From a virus: a stretch of 64,000 bases of DNA. The stretch spans positions 1 through 64,000 of the IMG/VR virus record IMGVR_UViG_3300022853_001508; one strand, written 5' to 3'. Of this stretch, positions 17,266-62,863 are shown piece by piece. Position 1 is the stretch's first letter; each line of letters begins with the position of its first letter. The notes under the pieces are model-generated. The model was not told where the DNA came from and searched no databases. It saw only the letters and a program-made list of their open reading frames with translations. Made by a program: the position numbers and the translations under genes.

Positions 17266-17594
17266 TTTAGAAAGTCTTTATCTATAGATAGGCTCGGATT
17301 TTTAAACTCCAGTTCATACAGCCCCCAAAGCGCTTCTGCAATCTCATTTCCTCTTTCATCAATATTGTCAAACCACCCCTTCTCATTAGAGGGTATTTTG
17401 TGGGTATCTCTCGCGTTAATTCTTCCAATATCATGAGAGCCTTTATTGGAAGACATTGACATTATAATGTGGTCTAAGAATATTCTCACCTGCTTATCCC
17501 ATTCTGTTGGTTTTTGCCAAGCTGGAATTATAAGTTTAGAACCTTCTTGACACATACCTTTAAAATTAATATCTCTACTTCCTTGTACTATCAT
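17262..17594 (-). CDS. hypothetical 110-aa protein inside DnaE break
   Basis: MIVQGSRDINFKGMCQEGSK start. Acidic C-terminal half, no recognised domain; one possible helix EIAEALWGLYELEF. The start overlaps the stop of the N-terminal polymerase piece, and its stop overlaps the endonuclease start, so it is translationally coupled. It travels with the endonuclease in the break and may be cargo or a nuclease accessory protein. That is inference from position only. Confidence 0.55.
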   Translation of the reverse strand: MIVQGSRDINFKGMCQEGSKLIIPAWQKPTEWDKQVRIFLDHIIMSMSSNKGSHDIGRINARDTHKIPSNEKGWFDNIDERGNEIAEALWGLYELEFKNPSLSIDKDFLK

Positions 17595-40350: not shown

Positions 40351-40629
40351 TTATCCTAGTAATCTATTTCCTCTATTTGCTAGTGCCCTAAAGCCAACAA
40401 AAGCTCCTGAACCAACATTAACACTGCTACATAGAACATTCACATACTGTCCAGCAGCTAAAGTCACAGTTAAATTTCCTCCTCCGAGTGCTACAATTGT
40501 TACAGCGCCCCCTGATGTGCAGTATACTTGGTGCACAGTAGATGCGGAGACGCCATCTCCGCAGATGTGCTTCCCATTTGCCCCTGAAGCAAAAGGGACT
40601 ATTGTGTAATTTGCGTTGTGTTGTGCCAT
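40351..40629 (-). CDS. small beta-rich virion protein, 92 aa
   Basis: MAQHNANYTIVPFASGANGK start; Gly/Ala/Val/Thr-rich strands with VTIVALGGGNLTVTLAAGQY typical of a small beta-barrel or trimeric spike/decoration domain. Ends 10 nt before the neck-like gene, with its own late-type promoter. Family not recognised. Confidence 0.55.
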   Translation of the reverse strand: MAQHNANYTIVPFASGANGKHICGDGVSASTVHQVYCTSGGAVTIVALGGGNLTVTLAAGQYVNVLCSSVNVGSGAFVGFRALANRGNRLLG

Positions 40630-40638
40630 TTTATAAGT

Positions 40639-40655
40639 CTTTCTATTAAATAGGT
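40639..40655 (-). promoter_or_regulatory. late-type promoter motif
   Basis: Gene-strand ACCTATTTAATAGAAAG, 9 nt before ATG 40629; divergent from the plus-strand copy at 40697. Confidence 0.6.
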
Positions 40656-40696
40656 TGAAAATAAGCTTCTACAGAGGGTTTGCGTTAGCAAAACCT

Positions 40697-40709
40697 GACC
40701 TATTTATGG
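40697..40709 (+). promoter_or_regulatory. late-type promoter motif overlapping a start
   Basis: GACCTATTTATGG on the plus strand. The motif's ATG is the first candidate start of the next gene, so if it is used as a promoter the real start is further downstream, or translation comes from an upstream transcript. Confidence 0.4.
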
Positions 40710-41353
40710 ACATGGTGCATTTCGAGAGAAAAGATTTTAATAATAAATCTAAGCGGGAAAAAAAGGATTTTATAGACAATCTCCTAGAAAAGGGCATTCG
40801 TTTGAATAAAGACGAAACTGTTGCAGCTACGAAAGCGCAAAAAAAGTGCTATATTAATGTTTTAATTGCACAAATAAAAGAGCTTGAACGCCACGAAATT
40901 GAAGCTGCTACTCATTCTCAAATGGAGAAATACATCGAAAAAAAGCGGTGGGTATCTATAGCTGAGTTCGGTCAATTGCCTTTCAACCTAAAAAAACTGT
41001 ATATTGATGTGGTTTTGTCAAAAAAAACAGGACTTTCTGATGCTGAGTTTGATGCAGCTCCTCATAAATTAAAAAAATACTATTGCAATAAAACGCTAGA
41101 ACTTGGGCGTGAAATGGGTCCTAAAATGTTTTCTTTCTTATCTAAAAAAGACCAATGTACATACATTGATATGACTTTAGCTGACGGAAGAAAGTTAACA
41201 ATAGAGTATGAGATTTTTATGAAAGTCCCAGCAAAGCTTCATTACAAGAAGGCCGTGCAGGCTCATCCTTTTATTTGGGAAACCCAAATTAGAAATCAAA
41301 TTAGAAAAATACTATTGGAGGCTGGTAAAAAAAATACCCTTGCTGGAAGCTAG
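40706..41353 (+). CDS. helical-repeat protein, about 215 aa
   Basis: Start at ATG 40706 (MDMVHFERKDFNNKSKREKK) or 40712; a TTG at 40655 would add 17 residues. The protein is built of seven degenerate units of about 27 residues with pattern x-x-x-E-F-x-x-x-P-x-x-L-K-K-x-Y-I-[DN]-x-x-L-x-x-x-[RK], for example SDAEFDAAPHKLKKYYCNKT and SIAEFGQLPFNLKKLYIDVV. Helix-pair repeats of this kind usually bind proteins. No family recognised. Confidence 0.6.
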   Translation: MDMVHFERKDFNNKSKREKKDFIDNLLEKGIRLNKDETVAATKAQKKCYINVLIAQIKELERHEIEAATHSQMEKYIEKKRWVSIAEFGQLPFNLKKLYIDVVLSKKTGLSDAEFDAAPHKLKKYYCNKTLELGREMGPKMFSFLSKKDQCTYIDMTLADGRKLTIEYEIFMKVPAKLHYKKAVQAHPFIWETQIRNQIRKILLEAGKKNTLAGS

Positions 41354-41434
41354 CAAAAATATTACTGAGTTGCTAAGAAATGTAATGTAAGTTATTCCAA
41401 CATTGGAAATGATTATAATTGTAAAATAAAAAAT

Positions 41435-41815
41435 ATGGAAAAAGCAACATATATACTGAACCAAGACGATACAAATGCAATCCAGGAGGCAGTTGAAACT
41501 TATGTATATGACAGTCCGTGGCAAAAAACAGTACTCAAAGTTTACAAAAAAACCCTAGCAAAAAACTGGGTCAAAGCAGTTTTTATTTTGATTTGGCTAA
41601 TTGACAGCATTCTTTATATGAGCGGTAAATCTGGAGGGTGGGGATTATGGGTTTCTATAACTTATTTTGTGAGCCTATTTTTTGCTCTACTAGTAAGTCA
41701 TTTAGTTCAAGGCTTTAGATGGAGAGCTGCTTATAGAGATTTTAAAAGAAACACTGAAATTTTTCACATTCCCTTAATAGACTTCAGAATCATGGGTCGT
41801 CGCTTTATAAAGTGA
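41435..41815 (+). CDS. membrane protein with two transmembrane helices, 126 aa
   Basis: MEKATYILNQDDTNAIQEAV start. Hydrophobic helices at about residues 48-66 (VKAVFILIWLIDSILYMS) and 74-93 (WVSITYFVSLFFALLVSHLV) flanked by basic residues; the N-terminal 45 residues and the C-terminal basic tail would both be cytoplasmic. Size and topology would allow a holin, but no lysis gene is adjacent. Function unknown. Confidence 0.55.
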   Translation: MEKATYILNQDDTNAIQEAVETYVYDSPWQKTVLKVYKKTLAKNWVKAVFILIWLIDSILYMSGKSGGWGLWVSITYFVSLFFALLVSHLVQGFRWRAAYRDFKRNTEIFHIPLIDFRIMGRRFIK

Positions 41816-41895
41816 AACTTTATATGGTTAAAATCGTAATAATTCTGCGTATTGTAATATTTTATCTATATACTTGCAACTGACTTCAAAAGACA
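41816..41895. other. 80-bp gap, probable promoter of the asnS leader
   Basis: AT-rich. TATACTTG at 41869-41876 resembles the Bacteroidetes -7 element TAnnTTTG with one mismatch. Nothing else seen. Confidence 0.35.
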
Positions 41896-41973
41896 ATGAC
41901 AACATTTTCTCTAAATAACAATTTTAATAACATCGCCAATCGGCTGATGAATAAGGTTGTTATGTCCAATTAA
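41896..41973 (+). CDS. asparagine-rich leader peptide of asnS, 25 aa
   Basis: MTTFSLNNNFNNIANRLMNK then VVMSN: eight Asn in 25 residues, six of them at positions 7-15. It lies between a possible promoter and an intrinsic terminator directly in front of asnS. This is the arrangement of leader peptides in transcription attenuation (as in trp, his and some aminoacyl-tRNA synthetase operons). Shortage of charged tRNA-Asn would stall the ribosome at the Asn codons. Confidence 0.6.
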   Translation: MTTFSLNNNFNNIANRLMNKVVMSN

Positions 41974-42023
41974 GGGATAGAAAAACATCGATATTCAAAA
42001 GCCGCTACTAAGCGGTTTTTTTT
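41931..42023 (+). promoter_or_regulatory. predicted attenuator of asnS
   Basis: Four segments can be drawn. 1: CATCGCC at 41931-41937. 2: CGGCTGATG at 41941-41949. 3: AGCCG at 42000-42004. 4: AGCGG at 42011-42015. 1 pairs with 2 (CATCGCC/GGCTGATG with one bulge), CGGCT of 2 pairs with AGCCG of 3, and 3 pairs with 4 in the terminator. A ribosome stalled on the Asn codons covers 1 and would leave 2 free to pair with 3, preventing termination. Confidence 0.5.
41997..42023 (+). terminator. intrinsic terminator in front of asnS
   Basis: AAAAGCCGCT, loop ACTA, AGCGGTTTT and further T to 42023: ten-pair stem (one wobble) with an eight-T run. It stands 27 nt before the asnS ATG, so it must be passed by readthrough. 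Confidence 0.85.
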
Positions 42024-42050
42024 GTGCCCAAACTTTTTTAAAATAAACAA

Positions 42051-43247
42051 ATGAAAACAAGACAAGGATGGATTCGTTCCGTGCGTAAATCCAAAGCATT
42101 AACATTCTTAGCCGTCACGGACGGGCAAGAGGAATTTCAAGTAACAATAAAACACTCAGACTGCGAAGTCTCCCTAGGGTTATCTGCTGGAGCGTCTATT
42201 CAAATGCAGGGTGAAGATGGGAGAACCCCCAGGGGAGATTATGAATTCAAAGCAACTTCAATTGAGGTTCTTGGCGAGTCTGGAGAAGATTACCCAGTTC
42301 AGCCTAAATTTCACTCTTCAAGCTTTCTTAGAACGATTCCTCAGACACGAGGGCGAGACCGACGCATGTGCGCTATTATGCACGCACGAAGCGAAACAAG
42401 CTTTGCATTACACTCGTTTATGCATGAGGAGTCAGTATCTCAATATCACACACCGATTATGACCAGCTCAGATTGTGAGGGTGCTGGAGAACAGTTTTCA
42501 GCCGAATCAGAATGGCTCAAACGACATTTAACGGTTTCGGGTCAGCTTCATGGAGAAGTTGGTATGATGGCGTTGGGGAAAATCTACACTTTTGGTCCAT
42601 GTTTTCGAGCTGAAAAATCATCAACCAGAAAGCATTTGTCTGAGTTCTGGATGATTGAACCTGAGCTGGCTCATTATGACTTAGAGCAAATAATGGATTT
42701 TGCCGAGTCTATGCTGAGAATGACAATTGCCAAAGTGGCTGTTTCACTTGGTAAAAGTGGCCATCAAAAAGAGTTGGGAGTAACCTTGGAATCACTTAAA
42801 TCTGAGGTTGGTGCCAGGTATTCTCGAATAACATATCAAGAAGTATGTGATGAGTTTGGTTTGTCATATGGAGAAGATGTAGGAACTGAACTAGAGCGTG
42901 AAATAGTTGCGCACCACAAAGGCCCTGTGTTTATCACTCACTGGCCACAGGACCTCAAACCATTTTATATGAAGAGAGAAGGTGGAAAGGCAATTTGTTT
43001 TGACCTGGTGTTCCCAGAAGTTGGAGAGTTGATTGGAGGCTCTGTTCGAGAAGAGGACCACGATACGCTAAAAACTCAAATGGAAGAAGCTGGCGTGGAT
43101 TCAAAATCTATGCAATGGTATCTAGACACTCGTAAATGGGGGACGGTTCCACATGCTGGGTTCGGAATGGGATTTGAGCGCCTGGTTATGTTCTTGACGA
43201 AAGCGGAGAAGATTCACGATGTGATTCCTTTTCCCGTTAGTTACTAA
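42051..43247 (+). CDS. asnS: asparaginyl-tRNA synthetase
   Basis: 398 aa, slightly shorter than bacterial AsnRS (about 430-470). N-terminal OB-fold anticodon-binding domain (WIRSVRKSKALTFLAVTDG). Class II motif 1 region HTPIMTSSDCEGAGEQF, motif 2 FRAEKSSTRKHLSEFWMIEP (about 185-204) and motif 3 GFGMGFERLVMF (370-381) are intact. GGSVREE and RKWGTVPHAGFG are the AsnRS rather than AspRS forms. The N-terminal domain is short. It should charge tRNA-Asn during infection. Expression is probably attenuated through the Asn-rich leader upstream. No tRNA gene is seen nearby. Confidence 0.92.
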   Translation: MKTRQGWIRSVRKSKALTFLAVTDGQEEFQVTIKHSDCEVSLGLSAGASIQMQGEDGRTPRGDYEFKATSIEVLGESGEDYPVQPKFHSSSFLRTIPQTRGRDRRMCAIMHARSETSFALHSFMHEESVSQYHTPIMTSSDCEGAGEQFSAESEWLKRHLTVSGQLHGEVGMMALGKIYTFGPCFRAEKSSTRKHLSEFWMIEPELAHYDLEQIMDFAESMLRMTIAKVAVSLGKSGHQKELGVTLESLKSEVGARYSRITYQEVCDEFGLSYGEDVGTELEREIVAHHKGPVFITHWPQDLKPFYMKREGGKAICFDLVFPEVGELIGGSVREEDHDTLKTQMEEAGVDSKSMQWYLDTRKWGTVPHAGFGMGFERLVMFLTKAEKIHDVIPFPVSY

Positions 43248-43268
43248 TGTAACCCTTATTGAAAATTA

Positions 43269-43279
43269 ACGTATATTTT
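43269..43279 (+). promoter_or_regulatory. candidate second-class promoter before paralog array
   Basis: ACGTATATTTT, 55 nt before the first array ATG; no late-type motif is present there. Confidence 0.4.
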
Positions 43280-43295
43280 TTCATAAACACAGCGA

Positions 43296-43337
43296 TGTTT
43301 GGATTGGACCAATACAATAATACTTAAATTGGTATGA
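43296..43337 (+). pseudogene. 3' remnant of a paralog unit at array start
   Basis: The frame ending TGA at 43337 encodes LDWTNTIILKLV, the conserved C-terminus of the array proteins, directly before unit 1 with the usual ATGA overlap. Upstream sequence does not match a unit, so an older copy was cut at about 43300. Confidence 0.75.
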
Positions 43338-43594
43338 AACTGAAAACGGCACAAACAGATGCATGCAAAAAGCAATTGCTTCGTCGTGGGTTCAAAGACG
43401 ATAAGTACAGCTCGCAGGTTTTGCGTCTTGGTGGAGACAAGCCAGGTGAAGTGGTTTATGATGCGTGGTTCCCTAATGATGGATACCCCAGTGATTGGTC
43501 TGTTGAAATCGACAAAGGGACTGCTGGCCCCAAAAACAGCATCGGTTGGTATGATTGGGATTGGACCAACACAATAAAACTTAGATTGGTATGA
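43334..43594 (+). CDS. paralog array unit 1, 86 aa
   Basis: First full member of eleven consecutive genes, each overlapping the next by ATGA. The shared protein plan is: MKLKT, a polar N-terminal helix around TDACKEALIRGGF, a variable 10-18 residue loop, LRLGGDKPGEVYD, W-F-P-x-D-G-Y, a segment F-V-R-I-x-K-G-T, a variable part, and a C-terminus W-D-W-T-N-T-I-I-L-R-L-V. It looks like a small one-helix plus beta-sheet fold, with no signal peptide, membrane helix or catalytic motif. This copy has RRGF and WSVEIDKGT. It is preceded by a remnant of another unit. Family not recognised; see the finding on the array. Confidence 0.85.
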   Translation: MKLKTAQTDACKKQLLRRGFKDDKYSSQVLRLGGDKPGEVVYDAWFPNDGYPSDWSVEIDKGTAGPKNSIGWYDWDWTNTIKLRLV

Positions 43595-43833
43595 GACTGA
43601 AAACGGCAAAAGATGCATGCAAAGAACAATTGATTCGTAGTGGGTTTAAAACCAAGTACAGCTCGCAGTGGTTGAGTCTTGGAGGAGACAAGCCAGGTGA
43701 GGTTTATGATGTGTGGTTCCCTCGTGGATACCGTTGGGATTGGTTCGTTCGAATCACCAAAGGGACTGTTGTTGGCTACAAAGACAACGGTGATTGGGAT
43801 TCTTCCAGTACAATAATACTTACATTTGTATGA
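43591..43833 (+). CDS. paralog array unit 2, 80 aa
   Basis: Shortest member. N-terminus reduced to MRLKTAKDACKEQLIRSGF; WFPRGYRWDWFVRITKGTVV in the middle. The C-terminus has diverged (WDSSSTIILTFV instead of WDWTN). The end of this copy matches unit 9 more than its neighbours, suggesting shuffling between units. Confidence 0.85.
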   Translation: MRLKTAKDACKEQLIRSGFKTKYSSQWLSLGGDKPGEVYDVWFPRGYRWDWFVRITKGTVVGYKDNGDWDSSSTIILTFV

Positions 43834-44105
43834 GACTAAAAACAGAAAAAACAAATGCAAAAGATGCAACAGATGCATGCAAAGAGGCACTGATTCGTGG
43901 TGGGTGTGAAACCATGACGAACAGCACAGAGGGGCTGCATCTTGGAGGAGACAAGCCAGGCGAGGTTTATGATGTGTGGTTCTATTGTGATGGACACCTT
44001 GAGGGTGAATTTGTTCGAATTTACAAAGGGACCGCTGCCTCCAAAACCAGCATTGGCTTTGTTTTTTGGGATAGGACCAACAAAATAATACTTAGATTGG
44101 TATGA
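43830..44105 (+). CDS. paralog array unit 3, 91 aa
   Basis: Start set at the ATGA overlap at 43830, not at the longer open frame from 43794. N-terminus extended (MRLKTEKTNAKDATDACKEA); GGCE replaces GGFE as in unit 5, and GHLEGEFVRIYKGTAASKTS resembles unit 5 in the middle. Confidence 0.85.
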   Translation: MRLKTEKTNAKDATDACKEALIRGGCETMTNSTEGLHLGGDKPGEVYDVWFYCDGHLEGEFVRIYKGTAASKTSIGFVFWDRTNKIILRLV

Positions 44106-44368
44106 AACTGAAAACGGCACAAACAAAAGACGCAACAGACGCATGCAAAGAGGTATTGCTTCGTGGTGGGTTTGAAAACGTGACGTACAGCGTGCGTCTG
44201 TTGCGTCTTGGAGGAGACAAGCCAGGCGAGGTTTGTGAAGCGTTGTTCCCTCCTGATGGATACCGTTGGGATTTGTTTGTTACAATCCACAAAGGGACCA
44301 TTTGGCCTGCCCCCAACGGTTTGGGTAATTGGGATTGGACCAACACAATAATACTTAGATTGGTATGA
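44102..44368 (+). CDS. paralog array unit 4, 88 aa
   Basis: MKLKTAQTKDATDACKEVLL start, identical over 16 residues to unit 5. The middle is distinctive: a VCEALFPPDGYRWDLFVTIH segment and a Pro-rich IWPAPNG before the standard WDWTNTIILRLV end. Confidence 0.85.
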   Translation: MKLKTAQTKDATDACKEVLLRGGFENVTYSVRLLRLGGDKPGEVCEALFPPDGYRWDLFVTIHKGTIWPAPNGLGNWDWTNTIILRLV

Positions 44369-44634
44369 AACTGAAAACGGCACAAACAAAAGACGCAACA
44401 GATGCATGCAAAGAGGCATTGATTCGTGGTGGGTGTGAAACCACGACGTACAGCTCGCAGGCTTTTGAGTTGCGTCTTGGAGGAGACAAGCCAGGCGAGG
44501 TTTATGATTTGTGGTTCCCTAATGATGGATACCTTGAGGGTGAATTTGTTCGAATCTACAAAGGGACTGTTGTTGGCTACAAAGACAACGGTGATTGGGA
44601 TTTTTCCAATAGAATAATCCTAATATTGGTATGA
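44365..44634 (+). CDS. paralog array unit 5, 89 aa
   Basis: Has the longer variable loop TTYSSQAFELRLGGDKPGEV shared with unit 7. GYLEGEFVRIYKGTVVGYKD combines a unit 3-like and a unit 2-like part, and the end is WDFSNRIILILV: a mosaic of other copies. Confidence 0.85.
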   Translation: MKLKTAQTKDATDACKEALIRGGCETTTYSSQAFELRLGGDKPGEVYDLWFPNDGYLEGEFVRIYKGTVVGYKDNGDWDFSNRIILILV

Positions 44635-44882
44635 AACTAAAAACGGCAAAAGATGCATGCCAAGAGGCACTGATTCGTCGTGGGTTCAAAAAACACAATG
44701 GGGACATGTGGCGGTTGCGTCTTGGAAACAAATCAGGTGAGGTTTATGAAGCGTGGTTTCCTGGCGATGGATACCGTAGGAGCGGATTCGTTCGAATCTA
44801 CAAGGGGACCGTTGGGGGCTCCAAAACCATCAGCGGGGTTGATTGGGATTGGACCAGTACAATAAGACTTAGATTGGTATGA
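44631..44882 (+). CDS. paralog array unit 6, 83 aa
   Basis: Short N-terminus (MKLKTAKDACQEALIRRGFK). The GG-D-KPGEV motif is altered to LGNKSGEV, and the loop contains NGDMWRLRL, a change shared in part with unit 9 (HLWRLWLGEKKSGE). Confidence 0.85.
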   Translation: MKLKTAKDACQEALIRRGFKKHNGDMWRLRLGNKSGEVYEAWFPGDGYRRSGFVRIYKGTVGGSKTISGVDWDWTSTIRLRLV

Positions 44883-45157
44883 AACTGAAAACGACAACAA
44901 AAGATGCATGCGATGCAAGCGATGCATGCCAAGAGGCATTGATTCGTGGTGGGTTCGAAGACACGACGTACAGCTCGCGGGCTTTTGAGTTGCGTCTTGG
45001 AGGAGACAAGCCAGGTGAGGCTTATGATGTGTGGTTCCCTCGCGATGGATACCGTTGGTATTTATTTTTTCGAATCCACAAAGGGACCATTGGGCCTGCC
45101 TCCAACAGTTCGGTTGATTGGGATTGGACCAGTGAAATAAGGCTTAAATTGATATGA
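44879..45157 (+). CDS. paralog array unit 7, 92 aa
   Basis: Longest member: the DAC element is duplicated (DACDASDACQEALIRGGFED), as in unit 11. Middle FFRIHKGTIGPASNSSVDWD; the end is WTSEIRLKLI. Confidence 0.85.
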   Translation: MKLKTTTKDACDASDACQEALIRGGFEDTTYSSRAFELRLGGDKPGEAYDVWFPRDGYRWYLFFRIHKGTIGPASNSSVDWDWTSEIRLKLI

Positions 45158-45420
45158 GACTGAAAACGACAACAGCAAACGCATGCCAAGAGACATTGCT
45201 TCGTGGCGGGTTCGAAGACGCGAACAACCCACAGTGTTTGGTTTTGCAACTTGGTGGAGAAAAGCCAGGTCCAGTGATTTATCAAGTGTGGTTTCCTCAC
45301 GATGGAGACCGAAGGGATTGGTTCGTTCGAATCCGCAAAGAAACCGTTGCTGGCCCCAAAATCAGCGATGGTTGGGTTGATTGGGATTGGACCAATGTAA
45401 TAACACTTATATTGGTATGA
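45154..45420 (+). CDS. paralog array unit 8, 88 aa
   Basis: Lacks the TDA element (MRLKTTTANACQETLLRGGF); GGEKPGPVIYQVWFPHDGDR and RKETVAGPK are unusual among the units. C-terminus WDWTNVITLILV. Confidence 0.85.
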   Translation: MRLKTTTANACQETLLRGGFEDANNPQCLVLQLGGEKPGPVIYQVWFPHDGDRRDWFVRIRKETVAGPKISDGWVDWDWTNVITLILV

Positions 45421-45680
45421 GACTAAAAACAGCAACAGATGCATGCCAAAAAGCATTGATTCGTGGTGGGTTCGAAGCCTCGATAAGGCACCTCTGGCGG
45501 TTGTGGCTTGGTGAAAAAAAGTCAGGTGAGGCTTATGAAGTGTGGCTCTCTCCTGATGGATACCGCAGTGATTGGTTCGTTCGAATCCATAAAGGGTCTT
45601 TAGTTACGCTTGCCTCTAAAGACCATCGTGGCTTTATTGAATGGGATTCTTCTAATCCTATAACACTTATATTTGTATGA
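45417..45680 (+). CDS. paralog array unit 9, 87 aa
   Basis: Start set at the ATGA at 45417 although the frame is open from 45381. The most diverged member: LWLGEKKSGEAYEVWLSPDG replaces the GGDKPGEV block, and the end reads WDSSNPITLIFV. Confidence 0.85.
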   Translation: MRLKTATDACQKALIRGGFEASIRHLWRLWLGEKKSGEAYEVWLSPDGYRSDWFVRIHKGSLVTLASKDHRGFIEWDSSNPITLIFV

Positions 45681-45937
45681 GACTGAAAACGGCAAAAACG
45701 ACATCAACAGAGGCATGCAAAGAACAATTGATTCGTGGTGGGTTTAAAACTATCAGCCCGTGGCAGTTGCGGCTTCAAAATAAGCCAGGTGAAGTGGTTT
45801 ATGGAGCGCACTTCCATTCTTATGGATACCTTGGGGATAGATTCGTTCGAATCGACAAAGGGACCGTTGTTGGCCCCAAAACCATCAGCTTTGTTTCTTG
45901 GGATTGGACCAATACAATAATATTTAGTTTGGTATGA
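45677..45937 (+). CDS. paralog array unit 10, 86 aa
   Basis: MRLKTAKTTSTEACKEQLIR start with a TTSTE insert. LQNKPGEVVYGAHFHSYGYL lacks the GGD and the WFP of other units. End WDWTNTIIFSLV. Confidence 0.85.
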   Translation: MRLKTAKTTSTEACKEQLIRGGFKTISPWQLRLQNKPGEVVYGAHFHSYGYLGDRFVRIDKGTVVGPKTISFVSWDWTNTIIFSLV

Positions 45938-46197
45938 GACTGAAAACAGCACAAACAGATGCATGTAATGCAAGTGATGCATGCAAAGACGCATTGATTC
46001 GTGGTGGGTTTGAACCCACGAAGCGGTACCCATATTTGGTAGCGTTGCGTCTTCAAAACAGGCCAGGTGAGGTTTATGAAGTGTGGTTTCCTGATGGATT
46101 CCCTGGGGATTGGTTCGTTGAAATCCACAAGGGGACCGCTAGGCCTGTCCCCTGGATTGAATGGGATTGGACTACAATAAGACTTATATTGGCATGA
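45934..46197 (+). CDS. paralog array unit 11, 87 aa
   Basis: Last full member; DACNASDACKDALIRGGFEP duplicates the DAC element as in unit 7. LQNRPGEVYEVWFPDGFPGD is like unit 10 in the LQN part. Followed by two truncated headers in one frame. Confidence 0.85.
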   Translation: MRLKTAQTDACNASDACKDALIRGGFEPTKRYPYLVALRLQNRPGEVYEVWFPDGFPGDWFVEIHKGTARPVPWIEWDWTTIRLILA

Positions 46198-46259
46198 GAC
46201 TAAAGACAACAAAAATTGATATGAGACTAAAAACGACAACACAACAAAATGTAACTTGA
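46194..46259 (+). pseudogene. two truncated unit headers at array end
   Basis: After the last full unit an ATGA start leads into MRLKTTKIDMRLKTTTQQNV and a stop. It contains the N-terminal MRLKT twice, so two collapsed units remain. It mirrors the C-terminal remnant at the left edge of the array. Confidence 0.75.
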
Positions 46260-46278
46260 AACTTTTTCTGGTTTATTG

Positions 46279-46288
46279 CGTATATTGG
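46279..46288 (+). promoter_or_regulatory. candidate second-class promoter
   Basis: GCGTATATTGG region, TATATTGG at 46281-46288, about 45 nt before ATG 46333. Same core as at 31163, 43269 and 57056. Confidence 0.35.
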
Positions 46289-46332
46289 TTATGCTATTAA
46301 AAACAACCCGTTACATATCTAAATACTAGTTT

Positions 46333-46734
46333 ATGATGAAATGGAATCAAAATGATGGAGGTCGAGTCGAGGCTGGCTTCGAACCCACAGATGGAGCTTG
46401 TGTTTATCGAGCTGTAGCTATTGTTACTAAGGAGCCATACCAAAAAGTTCATGATGTTCTGCTTAAACTAAGCTTGGATGATGACCCCAAGCATGAGGGT
46501 AGTGGAGTTCAGTTCCACGTACTCGATAAGTATATGGCTGAGCATGGATGGAAATGGACAAATATGCGTCGTCCAGTGCCACCACAGAATGAATTAATGC
46601 CAAAAAGAACAATTGCAGCCTTGGCAACAGACCATTTGGTTGCATGTGTTGACGGAGTATTCCAAGACACGCATGACTTCACAGCTGGAGCAGGAGCAAA
46701 AAGACAAATCGAAGGATATTACGAACAGGCTTAA
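46333..46734 (+). CDS. papain-like-fold protein with Cys-His-Asp residues, 133 aa
   Basis: MMKWNQNDGGRVEAGFEPTD start. GACVYRAVAIVTKEPYQKVH (Cys23), then DHLVACVDGVFQDTHD (His101, Asp112) is the pattern of a small phage and bacterial family I know only as hypothetical proteins of papain-like arrangement (C-x2-R-A-[IV]-A-I-x-x-x-x-x-Y-x-x-V...H-L-x-A-V-x-D-G-x-x-x-D-T). Catalysis is not proven. Follows the array and ends at a shared terminator. Confidence 0.6.
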   Translation: MMKWNQNDGGRVEAGFEPTDGACVYRAVAIVTKEPYQKVHDVLLKLSLDDDPKHEGSGVQFHVLDKYMAEHGWKWTNMRRPVPPQNELMPKRTIAALATDHLVACVDGVFQDTHDFTAGAGAKRQIEGYYEQA

Positions 46735-46806: not shown

Positions 46807-48453
46807 TTAGTAAGTGTTGATATTGTCAACGTATACGACTCCGTAGAAACGGTTGTTAACCATCTTCTTGGCGTAACGAGTCATGATACCTTTACGAGGT
46901 GTAAAGTCGTTCGGGTCATAAATTGTTTGCGTCAATTGAAGAGGGATGTACGGCGCGTAGATATAACCTGCTTCCAAGAAGGTGTTACCCTTGTGTCCTA
47001 GAAGAACGATTTGTGCTGGCAAATATGGGTCTTTGTAGACAACATATCTGTTAGCCAAGTTACCGATTTTCTCAACACCCAAGTTGTACTTTTCAGCTTC
47101 TGGTGAAGCAGAACCGTCAACGTGGAAGTATTCGAGGTCATCGAAAATAGCACCTGCCTCTGCAGAACATACAATCCAGTTAGCACCACCTCTCAATGTC
47201 GCCTTGTGAATTTGAGCTGATAGCTCATTTACACGAGTGATGAGAGTTTGATTCCAATCTTTTTGTGTTCCAAAGAAGTTGGCGTTGTTAGCCAATCCGT
47301 TGTAATCCCAACGAGCTTTAAACGGCGCACCGTTAATAAGGTCGATAATGATTTCTCTGTCGATTTCCGCTGCAACGTGCTCAGAAAGAAGAGCTGTAAG
47401 CTCAGCTTCTGCATCAATTGAGTGGTAAGCCTCAAGGTCTTGAGCAAGCTCAGGAGTCCAGTGTGCTCTCAACTTTCTAGTAACAGTGTTAACTGTAACA
47501 GAAGAGAAACGGATTGTGATTTCAGCCATCTCACTTTTCGCCTCTAGGTCGTTGAAGATTTCGTAAGCTGGAGTGATGGTGAACCTCACGGCTGCGCCGA
47601 ATTCAGTTCCACCTGAGTTCAAGTTGGCAACTGCGAAGTCAGAACCGTAAACACCTGCTGGACGAAGGTCAAGGACCACATCAGCATTGTTTCCAGCGTA
47701 CTGGTCTTCTGTCCAAGTTTGAATTTGGCTAAAGAATGGTACTGAGCCACCAGCTGCTACTACAAGCGTGTTCGAAGAACCAGCAGAGTAATAGATTTCC
47801 GTAGTAGATGAATAACGTAATGTTGCAGACGATTGCTGCTTCGACACGTCGAATCCAGTGTCCAATGCAAACGTTATATTAGAAAGACCACCTACAAACG
47901 AACTACCTGAAATTATTTGAAACGTACCTGTAACAGTTTCACCCGTTCCAAAGGAAAGGTCAAACCCGTGATTGTTGTAAAAACGTTCGTATGCAGTAGT
48001 GTCAGCAAAATTAGGCCCTACGTTTTGGTTGGCTGTGTTTTTTGGTGCAGTTTTAGATGCTCCAGCAACTTCGGCAGTTCTACCGATTTCATTGTTAAAT
48101 GTATTGTCACTATTGTTAAAGGAAACTCTAGCATCCATGTAGAACAGTAGTCCAGATGGAAGTGCGAGTGGTTGTACAGATACAAGCTCATTAGCAAGTA
48201 GTCGAGAGAATACCCTTCTTACGATAGGGAAAGCAACTGTGTCGAAACGACCAGCTGATGCATCGAGTGTTACCTCGTTAAGCATCGCCTGTGCTTGATT
48301 CTCAAGAAGCTGTGCTACGTTCGATTTCTGTGTACCACGCAAACCTTCCAATAGACCTGAGTCATCCCAGTTCTTCACGATAGCTGTGCGTTGTTCAGCA
48401 AGGTTCTTGAATGTTGTCATTCCAACCTTACCACTTCTTAGCAATTCGCTCAT
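46807..48453 (-). CDS. gp23: major capsid protein (T4 gp23-like)
   Basis: 548 aa. AHWTPELAQDLEAYHSIDAE with the following AELTALLSEHVAAEIDREII is the gp23 signature. The HK97-like N-terminal region holds an LLENQ segment and FPIVRRVFSRLLANELVSVQ. Part of the N-terminus (about 60 residues) is likely removed by gp21 during prohead maturation, as in T4. It assembles the capsid hexamers around the core. It is the third gene in gp21-gp22-gp23 order. No clear late-type motif directly precedes it; expression probably runs from the motifs before gp22 and gp21. Confidence 0.93.
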   Translation of the reverse strand: MSELLRSGKVGMTTFKNLAEQRTAIVKNWDDSGLLEGLRGTQKSNVAQLLENQAQAMLNEVTLDASAGRFDTVAFPIVRRVFSRLLANELVSVQPLALPSGLLFYMDARVSFNNSDNTFNNEIGRTAEVAGASKTAPKNTANQNVGPNFADTTAYERFYNNHGFDLSFGTGETVTGTFQIISGSSFVGGLSNITFALDTGFDVSKQQSSATLRYSSTTEIYYSAGSSNTLVVAAGGSVPFFSQIQTWTEDQYAGNNADVVLDLRPAGVYGSDFAVANLNSGGTEFGAAVRFTITPAYEIFNDLEAKSEMAEITIRFSSVTVNTVTRKLRAHWTPELAQDLEAYHSIDAEAELTALLSEHVAAEIDREIIIDLINGAPFKARWDYNGLANNANFFGTQKDWNQTLITRVNELSAQIHKATLRGGANWIVCSAEAGAIFDDLEYFHVDGSASPEAEKYNLGVEKIGNLANRYVVYKDPYLPAQIVLLGHKGNTFLEAGYIYAPYIPLQLTQTIYDPNDFTPRKGIMTRYAKKMVNNRFYGVVYVDNINTY

Positions 48454-49931: not shown

Positions 49932-51749
49932 TTACGCTGATTGCCAGAAAGATTTCTGAGAAATAAGTTGTAAACGGTTAAGCTCTCCTATTGATTTAGC
50001 TTTTTCTTTAACCCCTTTAAGTGGTCTCATATAACCTTCTTTAAAAAGGTAAGCCCCTGGGGTTGATGGGTTTGATACATAATCAAAAGCGATTAGTTCA
50101 AAATCATCTTGCACAATGTCTTGTCCACCCTGAGACTTAACACTTCCTACTCCACGAGAAGAAATTCCTAATTTGAATCCAGTTTTTAGAAGACCCTTCA
50201 ACGTGTTGCCTGCATCTGTTTCAGCAATTTGCACTCGGCCCCATAATTCTTTTCCTTCCCACCACATCTCAACAACACGGTGTGAAACATTAGCGAGAGA
50301 TACAACTGCGGAGTTTCCAGTCCAATGGGATTTACCATTACGCATTACAAAGAAATTTCCGTTTTTAACTCTGACACAAGCTACTTTATCAAACGGGTTT
50401 TGGATTTGAGAGATTTTTAAAAATCTCTCATCCATGTAAATAAAATCTGTAGTGCTAACATTAAGGATGAATTTAGTTTTACTATTTTTAGCCTCAATCA
50501 ATCTTGGTTTTAAAATTTCTTCTTTAACCATCTCTACAGCCCCATCTGACATCACCACTTCTTTTTCAAGAACGACTACATCATTTATATATCTATCTAC
50601 AGGTTGTTCTTGAGTTATATTTCCGTGGAGCCCTATTTTTAACAGCACCTCACTAAAGTCTTTAATCATCTTTTCTGAAGTAGAAAAAATCTTTTTACAC
50701 ACATATCCTTTGTCTTTATGATAAGATGTTTTAGATGTTCCATCTCCCATGTGAAAATTTTCAAAAAGAATAGTCAGCAATTCTGAATTAGCTGCTTTTA
50801 TATCTTCTGGAATGTATTTTTCAGAACTATTCCCTAAAGGAAATAGATATTGCTTAAGTCGTGCATCGTAAATTTGAAAATCTATTTTCCCATCTCTATA
50901 AACACGTTCGTTATACTCTATCCCTAAATCATCAAATATTTTTCTAATTGCCTCAAAATTCTCAGACTTCTTCTGTGTAATTTTAACGAGGTTGTGTTTT
51001 GCTTTGCTCCCACACACTCCAGCAGAAGTTCCATCAGCTAGATACAAACCTAAAAAAGCAAACCACGCTTTTGCATTAACAACAAGGTTTTGAGAATATT
51101 TATCCTTAAGCTCATTGCTTATGTGTGGTTTAAACTCTTCGATTCCAGGGATTATATAGGAATCGTAATTAATTCCATCCCAATTTCCTTTTTTAGGAAT
51201 TCTCCACTTTCCGCTTCTATACTCAGACAGCTCAGATGCTGTCTTCTCAAAAGATACCCCATCAGATGTCTCAAGTATAAATCTATGATTTGGAGTAACC
51301 ATCAAATCAATTCCTTTACCCTTAAAGTGATACATCTTACCACTATAGGGTTCTAAGATTTTTTTATCAATCTTATGAGCCTCAATTTTATTAGTTTCCT
51401 GATTTAAAGTATATATAAACTCATCTTCTGCAATATCTATTAGCTTCTTCCAGCCGTTAATGGTTAAAATGCTAGTGTCTAATGAGTTGCAATCAGGATG
51501 GTCAAGTTCACCACCAGCCACGTTTTCCTTTACGAGCTCCATGTACTTATCAGCCTCGCGCTTTAAAATTTCGTATGGGTAAATTCGACCGTTTTTATTT
51601 AACGTATCTGCTATCTGAAGAATTCCAGACATCACGATAGGCTGATATTTTTTTTCAGCCTCTATAATCATTTCACGGGTTGGAGCATTAAATGTATAGT
51701 ACTCGGAAATGATATATTTATCTTGGTAATCGGAAATAAGTCCGCTCAT
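49932..51749 (-). CDS. gp21: prohead core protease (T4 gp21-like) with intein
   Basis: 605 aa precursor; removing the intein (87-479) leaves 212 aa, the exact size of T4 gp21. The extein NGRIYPYEILKREADKYM (residues 53-70), GGELDHPD and SAVVSLANVSHRVVEMWWEG are the conserved S78-like protease blocks. The H of ELDHP and the later NVSH are expected near the active site. It cleaves capsid and core proteins during head maturation. The intein sits between two active-site blocks, so the protease is inactive until splicing. Confidence 0.92.
   Translation of the reverse strand: MSGLISDYQDKYIISEYYTFNAPTREMIIEAEKKYQPIVMSGILQIADTLNKNGRIYPYEILKREADKYMELVKENVAGGELDHPDCNSLDTSILTINGWKKLIDIAEDEFIYTLNQETNKIEAHKIDKKILEPYSGKMYHFKGKGIDLMVTPNHRFILETSDGVSFEKTASELSEYRSGKWRIPKKGNWDGINYDSYIIPGIEEFKPHISNELKDKYSQNLVVNAKAWFAFLGLYLADGTSAGVCGSKAKHNLVKITQKKSENFEAIRKIFDDLGIEYNERVYRDGKIDFQIYDARLKQYLFPLGNSSEKYIPEDIKAANSELLTILFENFHMGDGTSKTSYHKDKGYVCKKIFSTSEKMIKDFSEVLLKIGLHGNITQEQPVDRYINDVVVLEKEVVMSDGAVEMVKEEILKPRLIEAKNSKTKFILNVSTTDFIYMDERFLKISQIQNPFDKVACVRVKNGNFFVMRNGKSHWTGNSAVVSLANVSHRVVEMWWEGKELWGRVQIAETDAGNTLKGLLKTGFKLGISSRGVGSVKSQGGQDIVQDDFELIAFDYVSNPSTPGAYLFKEGYMRPLKGVKEKAKSIGELNRLQLISQKSFWQSA
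50313..51491 (-). mobile_element. gp21 intein with LAGLIDADG-type endonuclease
   Basis: Residues 87-479, 393 aa. Starts CNSLDTSILTINGWKKLIDI, block B VTPNHRFILE, motifs LGLYLADGT and LFENFHMGDGT, ends KSHWTGN before Ser+1. The penultimate residue is Gly instead of His, which is unusual for a self-splicing intein and may mean slow or altered cleavage. Confidence 0.85.
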
Positions 51750-56108: not shown

Positions 56109-56945
56109 TTAGGTTTTCTTTTTATAATACTTTTTATAAAAAACTTTAAAATGCTTACTGTCTTCTAATTTATAATTTAAGCAATCGTTCAAATTATCAA
56201 AAGTCACTAATTTTCTTTGATTTGTTTTTAGCTTTTCTAAGGCATGCTTTTTATCTCCAAGTGTTTCGAAAATTAGTTTATTTTTATTGTCATAAAAAAA
56301 CCAATATCGAGCACTGGGGTGAATGTCCATTATTTTTGGCCGTCTCCCTTTCATGGCGTCACTTCTTTTTTTATTACTTTCTTCACTATGTTTTCTTCCA
56401 GTGTGAAATCCGCTAATGCTTTTTCTTGATTTAATCCCTTTTTCTGTTTGAAAATACTTCTTTAGCGTATTACTAATTTTACCCTTACATTCATTGGATA
56501 CTTTTCTCCCTTTTAATGCTTTGCCTACCTTTTTACCTACTTCCTCAGCTGTTATATTGACGTATTTTCTTTTTTTTCCTTTTCTAATTTTAGAAAAAAG
56601 AGCCTTTAGCTCTTTCGCTTTCTTCTCTCCATAGTATTCTTCATAAGTTTTACCTTTTTTACCCTCAACAAGAACTAATTTACCACCAGTTCCGCCTTCA
56701 GATATATTGTATCCAATTTCCTTGTCAGTCGCTTTATAAAATTTAATCCAATATATTTCCTGCTTATTTAAACACTTTCTGTCGGAACAAACCTCTAGCA
56801 CTTCCTTTTTAAAATTATCTTTTCCATATTTCTTAATCGCTTTATGAAGAAGTAACCCCGACCCTAAATATTTAGGATTGTCATTTGAGTCTTGCCCTAT
56901 GTAGATTTTTTTATTTATTACGTTCGTTGTTTTGTAGATTATCAT
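56109..56945 (-). CDS. GIY-YIG homing endonuclease with NUMOD3 modules
   Basis: 278 aa. IIYKTTNVINKKIYIGQDSN is the GIY-YIG start, then LGSGLLLHKAIKKYGKDNF (catalytic-region pattern) and a conserved LNKQEIYWIKFY with Glu. The C-terminal half has NUMOD3-like repeats (KISNTLKKYF; SGFHTGRKHSEESNKKRSDA). Stand-alone Seg-type nuclease inserted between gene blocks, expressed from its own late-type promoter. Homing target not evident. Confidence 0.88.
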   Translation of the reverse strand: MIIYKTTNVINKKIYIGQDSNDNPKYLGSGLLLHKAIKKYGKDNFKKEVLEVCSDRKCLNKQEIYWIKFYKATDKEIGYNISEGGTGGKLVLVEGKKGKTYEEYYGEKKAKELKALFSKIRKGKKRKYVNITAEEVGKKVGKALKGRKVSNECKGKISNTLKKYFQTEKGIKSRKSISGFHTGRKHSEESNKKRSDAMKGRRPKIMDIHPSARYWFFYDNKNKLIFETLGDKKHALEKLKTNQRKLVTFDNLNDCLNYKLEDSKHFKVFYKKYYKKKT

Positions 56946-57359: not shown

Positions 57360-57547
57360 TAATTTGTGTAAAGCCCTCCTCTTACTTTGCAATAGACAAT
57401 GTCGCCTACTTTTGCATTACTTAGTTCTAATGGAGCCAGGACGTGTTCTTGGTTTGAATGAATCAAAGGAACCATTGAGCTCCCTCGTTCTTTTGTGGTA
57501 AACGTTTCACCGTTCTCCAGCCTTTCTATTTTATAGTTTCTTCTCAC
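57314..57547 (-). CDS. S24/S26 peptidase-like fold protein, probably shortened
   Basis: 77 aa. GETFTTKERGSSMVPLIHSN then LELSNAKVGDIVYCKVRGGL resembles the G-x-S-M-x-P start and the G-D-I-V strand of LexA/signal-peptidase-type folds. After GGLYTNYH the sequence becomes Pro/Ser-rich (TLPSSCAPPFFHR) and lacks the expected final strands, so the 3' end may have been lost at a rearrangement junction. No catalytic Lys partner is visible, so peptidase activity is doubtful. Confidence 0.5.
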   Translation of the reverse strand: MRRNYKIERLENGETFTTKERGSSMVPLIHSNQEHVLAPLELSNAKVGDIVYCKVRGGLYTNYHTLPSSCAPPFFHR

Positions 57548-57604
57548 TAATCATTTTATTTTCTTATCTAAGCTGTATCTTTGTTCTCATGTAGTTATAC
57601 CTAA

Positions 57605-58894
57605 CTATACGATGATTTTGTCTTTTTGTTTCATTCCCTCGTAAACTTGCTCGTAGAAACTTGCTCTGATTCCATTAATTCTATCGATGGAATATTCATC
57701 CATCACCCAGTCGTGAAGATTGTCTGCAAGCTCCTGTCGGTACCCAGGGTCATCGACAACCTGCTTAATGGCGTTATACCACCCCTTTTTGTTGTTCTTA
57801 ACCAAAATACCCGTCTCGCCGTCTTTAATAGTCTTAGAATAGATTCCGAAATCTTGCGCGATTAGCGCTTTTCTTTTAACACCCGCTTCAATAACTTTCA
57901 ACTCAGATTTTACTTTGTTGAAAATGTGAGGTCGCTTAACTATTTTTGCCTTCTGGCCCTGACCTACTTGTTGAGTGTAATGGTCTACTAGAGGAGCTAA
58001 ACAAACATCACAATGGTCGTAATGGGTTGCATATGTTTTCAAAGGTAAAGTCCAGCGTCTCAAATATGGTTTTTCATCCATGTTTGGATACTTTTCATTT
58101 TTAATTTTATACAGCCAGTTAAAATACTCCTTGTCCTCTTTTAGAAGCTGGTAGTCTGCTGTAAATATTCTTTCGAATTGCATCCAAATCGTCTCGTGTG
58201 GTTGGATAGGTCTTTCGTGCCTGTTCCCATTGTCGTCGATGCTGGTCAGATTACCTCTGGTATCAAATCCACACATTACAATCTGTGTCTTATCCTTCAG
58301 CTCTTGGTCCTTATTAAGCATCTCCATTGAGTCACGCAGAAGAAACAAGTCATGTAAGTGAGATGACCCACCAATCCAAGCAACTCTTGTACGGTCAGTA
58401 GGGTTTGGAACCGCTTCACTCCTCCACATCTTAGCTTCGGGGTTTACAGCGTTCGGAATCACAACCACATTTTTATTGACCTCTTTGATTTTTTCTGCAA
58501 AAATCTCTGTGGTCGTAGTGACCCAATCAACAAGTTTCAAATTGTTCTCTATATGCTTGTCAATTTTTTCAGCTTTCACCAAATCATAAAGAGGGTGAGT
58601 TGGAGGCGGACTCCAGAAGTCGTCAATATCCATCACCAGCACAGTCCCTTTGGATTGAAGCTCCGCGAATAGTTTCTCAGATGCTTCAAATGGCCCAAGC
58701 TGTCTGTGGAAATGAATTATATCAAATGATGACAGGTAGTTTATATTGGTAAAATCAGGAGTGACATCAATCTTAATTTGGAGCTCCTCTTTGTGGGATT
58801 TCCTAAGTTGCTGAGCCATCCAGATTGAGCGAAAATGCCCGACGCCTTGCACATCTGACGGGCAAACTAGCAATTTAATTCTTTTATTCTCCAT
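57605..58894 (-). CDS. GT-B glycosyltransferase
   Basis: 429 aa. The N-terminal Rossmann half starts KLLVCPSDVQGVGHFRSIWM, with the mid-sequence VVVIPNAVNP typical of GT4-like enzymes. The C-terminal half has VAWIGGSSHLHD, LRRWTLPLKTYATHYDHCDV and a KVIEAGVKRKALIAQDFG donor-binding E-x7-like motif. Probably transfers sugar to DNA bases, a virion protein or a cell-surface acceptor. Which cannot be read from the sequence. Its start overlaps the stop of the HEN remnant upstream. Confidence 0.85.
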   Translation of the reverse strand: MENKRIKLLVCPSDVQGVGHFRSIWMAQQLRKSHKEELQIKIDVTPDFTNINYLSSFDIIHFHRQLGPFEASEKLFAELQSKGTVLVMDIDDFWSPPPTHPLYDLVKAEKIDKHIENNLKLVDWVTTTTEIFAEKIKEVNKNVVVIPNAVNPEAKMWRSEAVPNPTDRTRVAWIGGSSHLHDLFLLRDSMEMLNKDQELKDKTQIVMCGFDTRGNLTSIDDNGNRHERPIQPHETIWMQFERIFTADYQLLKEDKEYFNWLYKIKNEKYPNMDEKPYLRRWTLPLKTYATHYDHCDVCLAPLVDHYTQQVGQGQKAKIVKRPHIFNKVKSELKVIEAGVKRKALIAQDFGIYSKTIKDGETGILVKNNKKGWYNAIKQVVDDPGYRQELADNLHDWVMDEYSIDRINGIRASFYEQVYEGMKQKDKIIV

Positions 58895-61003: not shown

Positions 61004-62863
61004 ATGAATAAAAACAGAAAAGTACAACGCCAAAAAACATCTCGTGAGATACAAAGCGACTTGGAAAAAATGGGCTTAGAGAGAGATAAGGAAGCTCAGA
61101 TGGATAGGCTTAATGCAATATCTCATTTTCAAATCAACAAAGATATTAAGCACAAAAACGCTAAGCAAAAGCTTCTGTGCAAAACTATCATGGAAAATGA
61201 AATCACATTTGTTGCTGGAGCTGCTGGGACAGGTAAGGCGCAACCACTAACTGAGCCTATATTAACGCCTGGCGGTTTTGTGGAAATCGGAAGCATTCGT
61301 CCTGGAGATAAAGTAATTTCGGTTGATGGAACACCTGTAAATGTCAACTCTATTCATCCACAAGGAGAAAAAGATGTCTATAAGGTGTCTTTTTCTGATG
61401 GAACGCATACACTATGCTGTGGTGAGCATTTATGGGAAACACAAACAGAAGCTGATAGAAATAATAGAAAAAAAAGGAATGGGGTTGCAATAAGAGAGCC
61501 GCTGTCAGGAGCAGTAAAAACTACTTTTGAAATAAAAGAGAGCTTACTGACTAACCGAGGCAGGAAAAACCACTCAATCCCCATCTGCAATCCTATACAG
61601 TTTGCAAATAAAGAACTAATAATTAACCCTTATCTAATGGGCTGTTTAATAGGCGACGGGTGCTACAGCCAACATTTTGTCTCGTTTAGCTCTGCGGACG
61701 AAGAAATTATTTGTGAGTTTAAGCAAAGCCTCCCTCACCCTGTTAAGATAAGTAAAAAACCTGGAGATAATTATGATTATTACATAACAACTAAGACAAG
61801 GTCAAATAAGGCGAATAATTTACTCCTCTTTGAGATGAGGGATTTAGGTTTAATGGGTCAAAAATCTCATGAGAAAATAATTCCTGATAAATATCTCTAC
61901 TCTTCTGTTGAAGATAGGGTGGAGTTACTAAGGGGTTTAATGGATACAGATGGGCATATCCCTAAAAATGGCTCTTCTATTGAATATTACACCACGTCGC
62001 AAATTTTAGCTAGTCAAGTCATGGAGCTAATTAGAAGCCTTGGTGGTATTTCTTCAATTAGAACTAAAAAACCCTTTTTTACAGATAAATTTGGAGAAAA
62101 AAAGCAAGGAAAGATATGCTATGTTGTCACTGTTTTATTTGAAACGCTTAACCCTTTTAAGTTATCAAGAAAAGCAGGACTATTTTCTGATAAAAAAAGA
62201 ATGAAAATAAAATATATTACTGGTGTCGAAAAACAAGGAGAAGAAGAGTGTGTTTGTATTCACATAGACCACCCAAGACATTTATATGTGACAAGAGATT
62301 ATAATGTTACTCACAACACCTTACTTAGTTTAAAAACTGCTTTAGAATTACTGAAAATTGACAACGAATATAGCCAGATTATACTCACAAAACCAATTGT
62401 AGAAGCTGGCGAATCAATAGGGTTCTTACCTGGAGACATAGACTCAAAAATAGACCCCTATATGGACTCATTTTTGGGAAATTTTAAAAAACTTGTAGGC
62501 TCAACAAAGACAAAGGACTTCATTCAGAATGACGTTGTTAAATATGTTCCTCTTGCATATCTTCGTGGTGAAACGTTTGAAAATTCAGTAGCAATAATTG
62601 ATGAAGCGCAGAATACAACAGTAGCTGGGTTAAAGCTTTGGATTTCTCGTAAAGGAGAAAGTTCAAAGCTTATAATTATCGGAGACACAGACCAAACAGA
62701 CCTTTATCTAAGAAATGGTCAGCGCTCAGGATTAGACGATGCTTTTAATAGGTTTCAAGGCCTTCCAAAAATTGGTTTTATACAATTCACAGAAGATGAA
62801 ATCGTTCGCTCAGGTATTCTAATAGATGTTATGAAGAGGTATAAACTTGAATTAAAAAGCTAA
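61004..62863 (+). CDS. phoH: PhoH-like ATPase with class 3 intein in the P-loop
   Basis: 619 aa precursor, about 259 aa after loss of the 360-aa intein. Extein: GAAGTGK at 72-78 joined to TLLSLKTALELL gives the Walker A GAAGTGKT. Also present are IILTKPIVEAGESIGFLPGD, VAIIDEAQNTT (Walker B) and IIIGDTDQTDLY, the PhoH family set. PhoH-like ATPases in phages are common and of uncertain role, possibly RNA or nucleotide linked. An extended basic N-terminus precedes the domain. No late-type motif in front. Confidence 0.92.
   Translation: MNKNRKVQRQKTSREIQSDLEKMGLERDKEAQMDRLNAISHFQINKDIKHKNAKQKLLCKTIMENEITFVAGAAGTGKAQPLTEPILTPGGFVEIGSIRPGDKVISVDGTPVNVNSIHPQGEKDVYKVSFSDGTHTLCCGEHLWETQTEADRNNRKKRNGVAIREPLSGAVKTTFEIKESLLTNRGRKNHSIPICNPIQFANKELIINPYLMGCLIGDGCYSQHFVSFSSADEEIICEFKQSLPHPVKISKKPGDNYDYYITTKTRSNKANNLLLFEMRDLGLMGQKSHEKIIPDKYLYSSVEDRVELLRGLMDTDGHIPKNGSSIEYYTTSQILASQVMELIRSLGGISSIRTKKPFFTDKFGEKKQGKICYVVTVLFETLNPFKLSRKAGLFSDKKRMKIKYITGVEKQGEEECVCIHIDHPRHLYVTRDYNVTHNTLLSLKTALELLKIDNEYSQIILTKPIVEAGESIGFLPGDIDSKIDPYMDSFLGNFKKLVGSTKTKDFIQNDVVKYVPLAYLRGETFENSVAIIDEAQNTTVAGLKLWISRKGESSKLIIIGDTDQTDLYLRNGQRSGLDDAFNRFQGLPKIGFIQFTEDEIVRSGILIDVMKRYKLELKS
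61238..62317 (+). mobile_element. PhoH intein, class 3 type, with LAGLIDADG endonuclease
   Basis: Residues 79-438, starting with Ala (AQPLTEPILTPGGFVEIGS), not Cys or Ser. Class 3 residues are present: Trp144 in block B (CGEHLW), Cys418 in block F (ECVCIHID), Thr436 in block G (YNVTHN), then Thr+1. Endonuclease motifs LMGCLIGDGCY and LLRGLMDTDGH. Confidence 0.85.

Follow-up and report, generated by a model that had tools for sequence, protein, structure and literature searches.

A Tandem Array of ATGA-Coupled Paralogous Genes That Differs between Near-Clonal Phages: A Possible Repertoire of Small Binding Proteins

Results

The window studied here, the first 64 kb (64,000 nucleotides, nt) of the 92,165-base virus record IMGVR_UViG_3300022853_001508, contains at positions 43334-46197 (plus strand) eleven consecutive open reading frames (ORFs) of 80-92 codons which encode one protein family. 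In agreement with the original prediction, made from the sequence alone, of eleven tandem paralogues forming one coupled operon, every junction between units is the identical 4-nt ATGA stop/start overlap, with the TGA stop of one unit overlapping the ATG of the next. A chain of eleven such genes is far above chance expectation, the longest elsewhere in the window being three and the longest in 20 shuffles being one. Pairwise identity between the units is 45-74% at the amino acid (aa) level and 66-86% at the nt level. As had been noted, the unit ends are conserved and the middles vary; 18 columns are invariant in the family, including the N-terminal M-x-LKT, the helix A-C-x3-L-x-R-x-G, I-x-K, and WD. 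The array of the window is referred to as haplotype A. A second one, haplotype B, is represented by contigs 3300022843_000009 (L005, which enters the locus from the left) and 3300005918_000027 (L004, from the right), with replacement units named B2 to B5 where they are referred to singly. The units and the remnants at the array ends are as follows.

43299..43337, plus strand: remnant, C-terminus of a lost unit without its front (frame translation DWTNTIILKLV, then a TGA overlapping the ATG of unit 1); also upstream of the haplotype B array in L005
43334..43594, plus strand: unit 1, 86 aa; replaced in haplotype B (L005)
43591..43833, plus strand: unit 2, 80 aa; replaced in haplotype B
43830..44105, plus strand: unit 3, 91 aa; first 56 nt exact in B2, last 45 nt present there with 5 differences
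44102..44368, plus strand: unit 4, 88 aa; replaced or missing in haplotype B
44365..44634, plus strand: unit 5, 89 aa; first 70 nt and last ~18 nt found also in B3, around a different middle
44631..44882, plus strand: unit 6, 83 aa; last replaced unit, the haplotypes agreeing again from ~44867
44879..45157, plus strand: unit 7, 92 aa; common to both haplotypes
45154..45420, plus strand: unit 8, 88 aa; common to both haplotypes
45417..45680, plus strand: unit 9, 87 aa; common to both haplotypes, with one nonsynonymous difference at 45453
45677..45937, plus strand: unit 10, 86 aa; common to both haplotypes
45934..46197, plus strand: unit 11, 87 aa; common to both haplotypes
46194..46259, plus strand: one short frame made up of two truncated unit starts (MRLKTTKID-MRLKTTTQQNVT, then a stop), entered via the ATGA of unit 11; also in loci L001 and L004

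For unit 3, an in-frame TTG upstream would extend the product to 103 aa. The frame at 46194-46259 is debris of lost units, and the stubs at both array ends testify to the gain and loss of units. The minus strand also has long ORFs across the array, which were read as shadows of the repeat.

The array was not the product of misassembly, since the independent assembly IMGVR_UViG_3300022837_000012 contains it in identical form, the 12,258 bases in common with the window showing zero differences. Two further contigs, 3300005913_000014 and 3300007074_000083, are identical to the window as far as base 44986, where both stop.

Upstream of the array, L005 is 99.993% identical to the window over 42,029 nt (3 mismatches in the alignment, and one further mismatch at 43329, at the array edge), and downstream of it L004 is 99.950% identical over 45,968 nt (23 mismatches). 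Within the array, units 7-11 and the stubs are common to both haplotypes, with two base differences among them, and units 1-6 are replaced in haplotype B by at least five other units, to any of which the nearest window unit shows only 77-82% nt identity. The ends of L005 and L004 overlap exactly by 69 nt within B4. Since this overlap falls across a 62-nt repeat common to B4 and B5, the haplotype B array has at least ten units, the exact number being uncertain. The last difference between the haplotypes is at 44866, and the two window-type contigs mentioned above stop 120 nt beyond it. Contigs ending just past the point where variants merge are as would come from a k-mer assembler, so haplotypes A and B probably coexist in the samples of these two contigs. 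Most of the few single-nucleotide polymorphisms between the haplotypes fall into two clusters, one outside the window at 83305-86987 of the full 92-kb record and one at 57480-58147, the latter lying in and just beside a glycosyltransferase gene.

The difference between these near-clonal phages bears on two explanations of the array. Subunits of one obligate heteromeric assembly, each with a fixed place, would be served by the equal co-translation that the ATGA junctions give; in haplotype B, however, six of the eleven are absent and a different number of other units is present, which a fixed machine would not tolerate, and this explanation is very unlikely. The original prediction had also weighed a diversified repertoire against an amplification raising the dose of a single product, as in T4, where TifA is raised by tandem amplification (PMC9391042). 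Dose amplifications are near identical, whereas the units here are 45-74% identical in aa sequence and differ between haplotypes, which speaks against pure dosage and for diversification and makes the dosage explanation very improbable.

The mosaic make-up of units, also noted originally, is supported. B2 opens with the first 56 nt of unit 3 and closes with 45 nt that are five bases away from the end of that unit, with a different middle between them; B3 has the start (70 nt) and the end (~18 nt) of unit 5, again around a different middle; and B4 and B5 are identical over their 62 nt and then diverge. A PHI-type recombination test gave p = 0.009 for the 11 window units and p = 0.046 when the haplotype B units were added, and long exact tracts between units switch partner. 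Synonymous and nonsynonymous change co-vary along the unit, as expected if the ends are homogenised and the middles exchanged. The phage itself carries a RecA-type gene (G005:88112-88648). The units have arisen by tandem duplication, are gained and lost, and recombine, and the array turns over far faster than the remaining genome changes.

Constraint was analysed on 16 complete units, 11 from the window and five from haplotype B. All of them are open and every length difference or indel is a multiple of three; the chance of 16 open frames without constraint is ~10^-11 (star tree). Frequent frameshifts, which would have spoken against the original prediction, were not seen in these units. The ratio of nonsynonymous to synonymous change (pN/pS) is 0.92 for the array (bootstrap 0.71-1.20) versus 0.25-0.27 for gp23, the major capsid protein gene. 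By codon position, 45, 39 and 42 of 67 columns are variable in the array, and third positions dominate in gp23. Frames kept open together with a pN/pS of 0.92 indicate that function is retained while the sequence is free to change very fast; fast amino-acid change is borne out by these values, and strict positive selection is not.

A birth-and-death tandem repeat under weak constraint, in which reinitiation keeps the frames coupled with little selection on the middles, would fit the pN/pS near 1, the near-equal variation at all codon positions and the decayed stubs at both ends. It is nevertheless improbable, given the intact state of all 16 units, the core residues (A, C, L, R, G, I, K, W) that stay invariant across units with unrelated middles, and a divergence of ~20-25% between phages 3 bases apart in 42 kb, which neutral drift cannot give. 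Localised hypervariability could also come from a diversity-generating retroelement or from an assembly artefact. No reverse transcriptase (PF00078) was found in 92 kb + 141 kb + 56 kb of contigs, and adenine bias is absent, majority-A columns being the least variable (0.43 versus 0.83 for G). A retroelement was rejected on these grounds for the sequence at hand, as was an artefact on the agreement between independent assemblies; the two together are left with a negligible likelihood.

AlphaFold models of two different units agree in one helix followed by a four-stranded antiparallel sheet (predicted local distance difference test, pLDDT, 72 and 69). Conservation in the model falls on the helix, one sheet face and a GGDKPGE turn, and variation after the helix, in segments 46-57 and 64-74 and at alternate strand residues. 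The array protein is, on these models, likely a small folded domain with a conserved core and variable loops and outer sheet face, as in a binding scaffold. A ubiquitin-conjugating-enzyme fold was considered and rejected, the Foldseek matches being weak (probability about 0.1-0.2) and covering a common helix-plus-meander start.

In line with the original prediction that the family has no catalytic signature, no recognisable catalytic family was found for the array proteins. Searches of Pfam, PHROGs, NCBIfam, PADLOC and PDB sequences with single units and with the 16 units gave isolated matches only (E > 0.02), and tblastn at E 10 against 50,697 phages and 72,556 plasmids gave short chance matches only. 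A pattern scan of genome contigs found no relative of the family, and Rfam gave no match for the array read as non-coding RNA. Scans of IMG/VR with two peptide pattern sets and a junction DNA pattern led to the same five contigs, beyond which no phage or metagenome relatives were found; single-site matches of the junction pattern on 22 other contigs were taken as chance. A profile search, run without a positive control alongside, found the family absent from 20 related phage records; a profile of this kind does recover units in the window record and in five related contigs. In 80 gp23-linked loci (1.0 Mb) a profile search gave nothing with E < 5, and a scan of related loci for tandem paralogue arrays found none comparable.

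The array lies in an accessory slot between structural genes, with the following neighbours.

40655..46734, plus strand: accessory slot bounded by conserved structural genes (40351-40629 and gp23), in which relatives carry other genes or nothing
40655-41353, plus strand: slot gene, no assigned family
41435-41815, plus strand: slot gene, no assigned family
42051-43247, plus strand: short class II asparaginyl-tRNA synthetase-like (AsnRS-like) gene, 398 aa, directly preceding the array
46333-46734, plus strand: phrog_3754 gene, last gene of the slot, after the array
46807..48453, minus strand: major capsid protein (gp23; Pfam Gp23 E 5.7e-75), convergent neighbour, used to find relatives

Between gp23 and the homologue of 40351-40629, relatives have either no gene at all (L025, L027) or accessory genes of unrelated kinds (L022, L023, L024, L026, L032). 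The gp23-flanking slot of L022-L032 appears as an accessory hotspot with HD-type hydrolase-like, nuclease-like and unassigned genes or nothing (types judged by eye). The AsnRS-like gene has a 53% relative in a 635-kb uncultured phage.

This setting bears on the possibility that the array encodes accessory proteins of the capsid or tail, displayed on the virion surface as decorations or adhesins and diversified for attachment or particle presentation. The locus adjoins the major capsid gene, the W-, Y- and G-rich variable face would fit a binding surface, and co-translation of many versions would give a mixed coat. Such a role is unlikely, however: the slot is accessory, on the strand opposite to gp23, and in relatives unrelated genes or none occupy it; the units have no Pfam or PHROG match to known decoration proteins (T4-type Soc, Hoc), and inspection of the sequences by eye shows neither a signal peptide nor a coiled coil.

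The phage, a large tailed one, has genes for a gp23-type capsid, prohead protease, large terminase, sheath and tube. The comparison with T4-like phages in the original prediction holds as far as capsid, protease, terminase and sheath are of T4 type, but the relationship to T4 is only distant. Among named phages it has distant relatives only; the nearest terminase is that of a Flavobacterium phage (32%). The genes are almost entirely without Shine-Dalgarno sites and have A-rich leaders, a combination which is a Bacteroidota trait. Missing Shine-Dalgarno sites and the best terminase match together suggest a Bacteroidota host. The IMG taxon numbers belong to what we take to be Antarctic saline lake samples, an attribution that is unconfirmed and was not used in the argument.

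Several other features of the phage were recorded. The motif CTATTTAnnnGAAAC lies ~20 nt before several structural genes, e.g., 34809, 37651, 51760 and 60918 (minus strand), and occurs at 22 sites in the window at up to 2 mismatches versus 11 expected; it is a candidate late promoter in a phage without Shine-Dalgarno sites. The haplotype B contig IMGVR_UViG_3300022843_000009 contains at about 26.5-28.6 kb (L140:5499-7510) a CRISPR array of about 27 repeats of GTTGTGATTCCCTTGCAGAATGAGATGATAAACAGG with a 66-nt period, adjoined by a cas6 gene (L140:7598-8314, PF01881 E 1.7e-11). The 24 extracted spacers had no match among the loci examined, and the repeat was not found in the genome contigs and gave no host identification. 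Inteins of LAGLIDADG type appear to split the prohead protease gene (49932-51749, minus strand) and a PhoH-like gene (61004-62863, plus strand). The DNA polymerase is in two genes, 17591-19780 and 14582-16255 (minus strand), with a DUF7487 gene (16201-17265) between them that has weak similarity to an inserted gene next to gp23 in L024. Positions 1-1236 are tandem 66-nt (22-codon) repeats, open on both strands, inside which the record starts; the long near-identical match to haplotype B starts only at base 182, inside these repeats.

Discussion

No description of such an array in a phage was found in the literature (open-licence papers only). The closest described layout and population behaviour is that of homogeneous polyimmunity loci, in which immunity genes of polymorphic toxin systems stand as tandem paralogues (Zhang et al. 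2012, PMC3482391); the array behaves like such a locus, but its membership in this class fails on protein family and genome type. Like the array, these loci consist of tandem, same-strand, close-packed paralogues, presumably on one message (PMC3482391), encode small alpha+beta proteins with no cognate toxin beside them, and vary in number and type between strains of a species, as array content does between haplotypes A and B. They are also known in Bacteroidetes (PMC3482391). The array differs from them in its phage rather than bacterial genome, in the strict 4-nt ATGA coupling at every junction and in its mosaic middles with shared ends, and its protein falls in no described toxin-immunity family, the 16 units having no significant Pfam, NCBIfam or PDB match.

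A phage-borne locus of polyimmunity type, each unit of which neutralises a competitor's exclusion factor or toxin rather than a host defence, would accommodate several of these published traits. Such a locus is rather unlikely here, since no unit matches a Pfam immunity family, no toxin gene was recognised beside the array, and the published loci are described in cellular genomes.

Among phages, T4 tandemly amplifies tifA, the gene of an 85-aa ToxN inhibitor (Srikant et al. 2022, PMC9391042). Both cases are recombination-made tandem arrays of a gene for a protein of ~85 aa in a T4-like phage, and tifA itself is a counter-defence inhibitor gene. The tifA copies, however, are recent dose-raising amplifications whose repeat includes dmd and flanks, whereas the array units are gene-exact and ATGA-coupled; near-identical repeats of the tifA kind are not what is found, with DNA identities of 66-86%. 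The array proteins also have no significant PHROG family match (TifA itself was not compared directly). In T6, anti-defence loci undergo SegB-driven tandem expansion that depends on UvsX/UvsY recombination (PMC13096335). The array resembles these loci in its tandem expansion and differs in that no homing endonuclease gene was recognised in or beside it, the nearest being of GIY-YIG type (56109-56945).

The gene accordion of poxvirus K3L and the multigene families of African swine fever virus are further cases in which small host-antagonist genes expand in tandem, diverge and vary between isolates. These are eukaryotic viruses, likened to the array in these respects; K3L is mentioned in PMC9391042.

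The explanation that we favour, albeit tentatively, is that the array encodes a repertoire of small binding proteins, expressed together and reshuffled by recombination, whose most likely role is to inhibit variable host defences. Diversification of the units was observed directly; the function is one that we infer. Taken together, the equally co-translated divergent versions, the accessory slot, the block replacement between near-clonal phages and the conserved core with its variable face suggest that the proteins form a polyvalent binding set confronting a variable opponent. The locus would then be a hypervariable multigene family, its tandem ATGA-coupled operon making at least ten versions of one ~10 kDa protein at once. 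The unit ends act as shared tracts while the middles are exchanged by recombination, for which the phage's own RecA/UvsX-type recombinase is the likely enzyme. The unit set may then constitute a polyvalent cocktail of stoichiometric inhibitors against variable opponent proteins, most probably anti-phage defence components of a Bacteroidota host, and selection would favour new unit sets acquired from co-circulating phages through recombination. In phage accessory regions, small stoichiometric inhibitors often counter host defence, and T4-type phages amplify such genes in tandem, which makes host defence the likeliest opponent.

Several results weigh against this explanation. The known haplotypes number only two, pN/pS is not significantly above 1, so that diversifying selection on residues is not proven, and the alternation of variable residues along the strands (p = 0.03) is a weak test. 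Confidence in the fold model is only moderate at the pLDDT values given, and the unit models had no Foldseek match at E < 0.5 in PDB or BFVD. The array proteins are without a homologue of known function, and no known anti-defence gene is among the neighbours of the array.

Conclusions

The locus may possibly be a dedicated phage repertoire locus, in which about ten versions of one scaffold are jointly translated and their middles swapped by recombination through conserved ends. If so, phages of a clonal lineage could change their whole inhibitor set in one step, in likeness to antigen or resistance-gene clusters in eukaryotes. The usual view is that phages meet diverse defences with inhibitors gained singly or with crude increases in gene dose. 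A natural, divergent, co-translated array that is replaced in blocks would be the next step beyond the laboratory amplifications of tifA and SegB loci, in which amplification is joined by divergence and by the exchange of repertoires. With two haplotypes at hand, the question can be put to a direct test, and the array proteins, having no known relatives, could reveal new defence targets.

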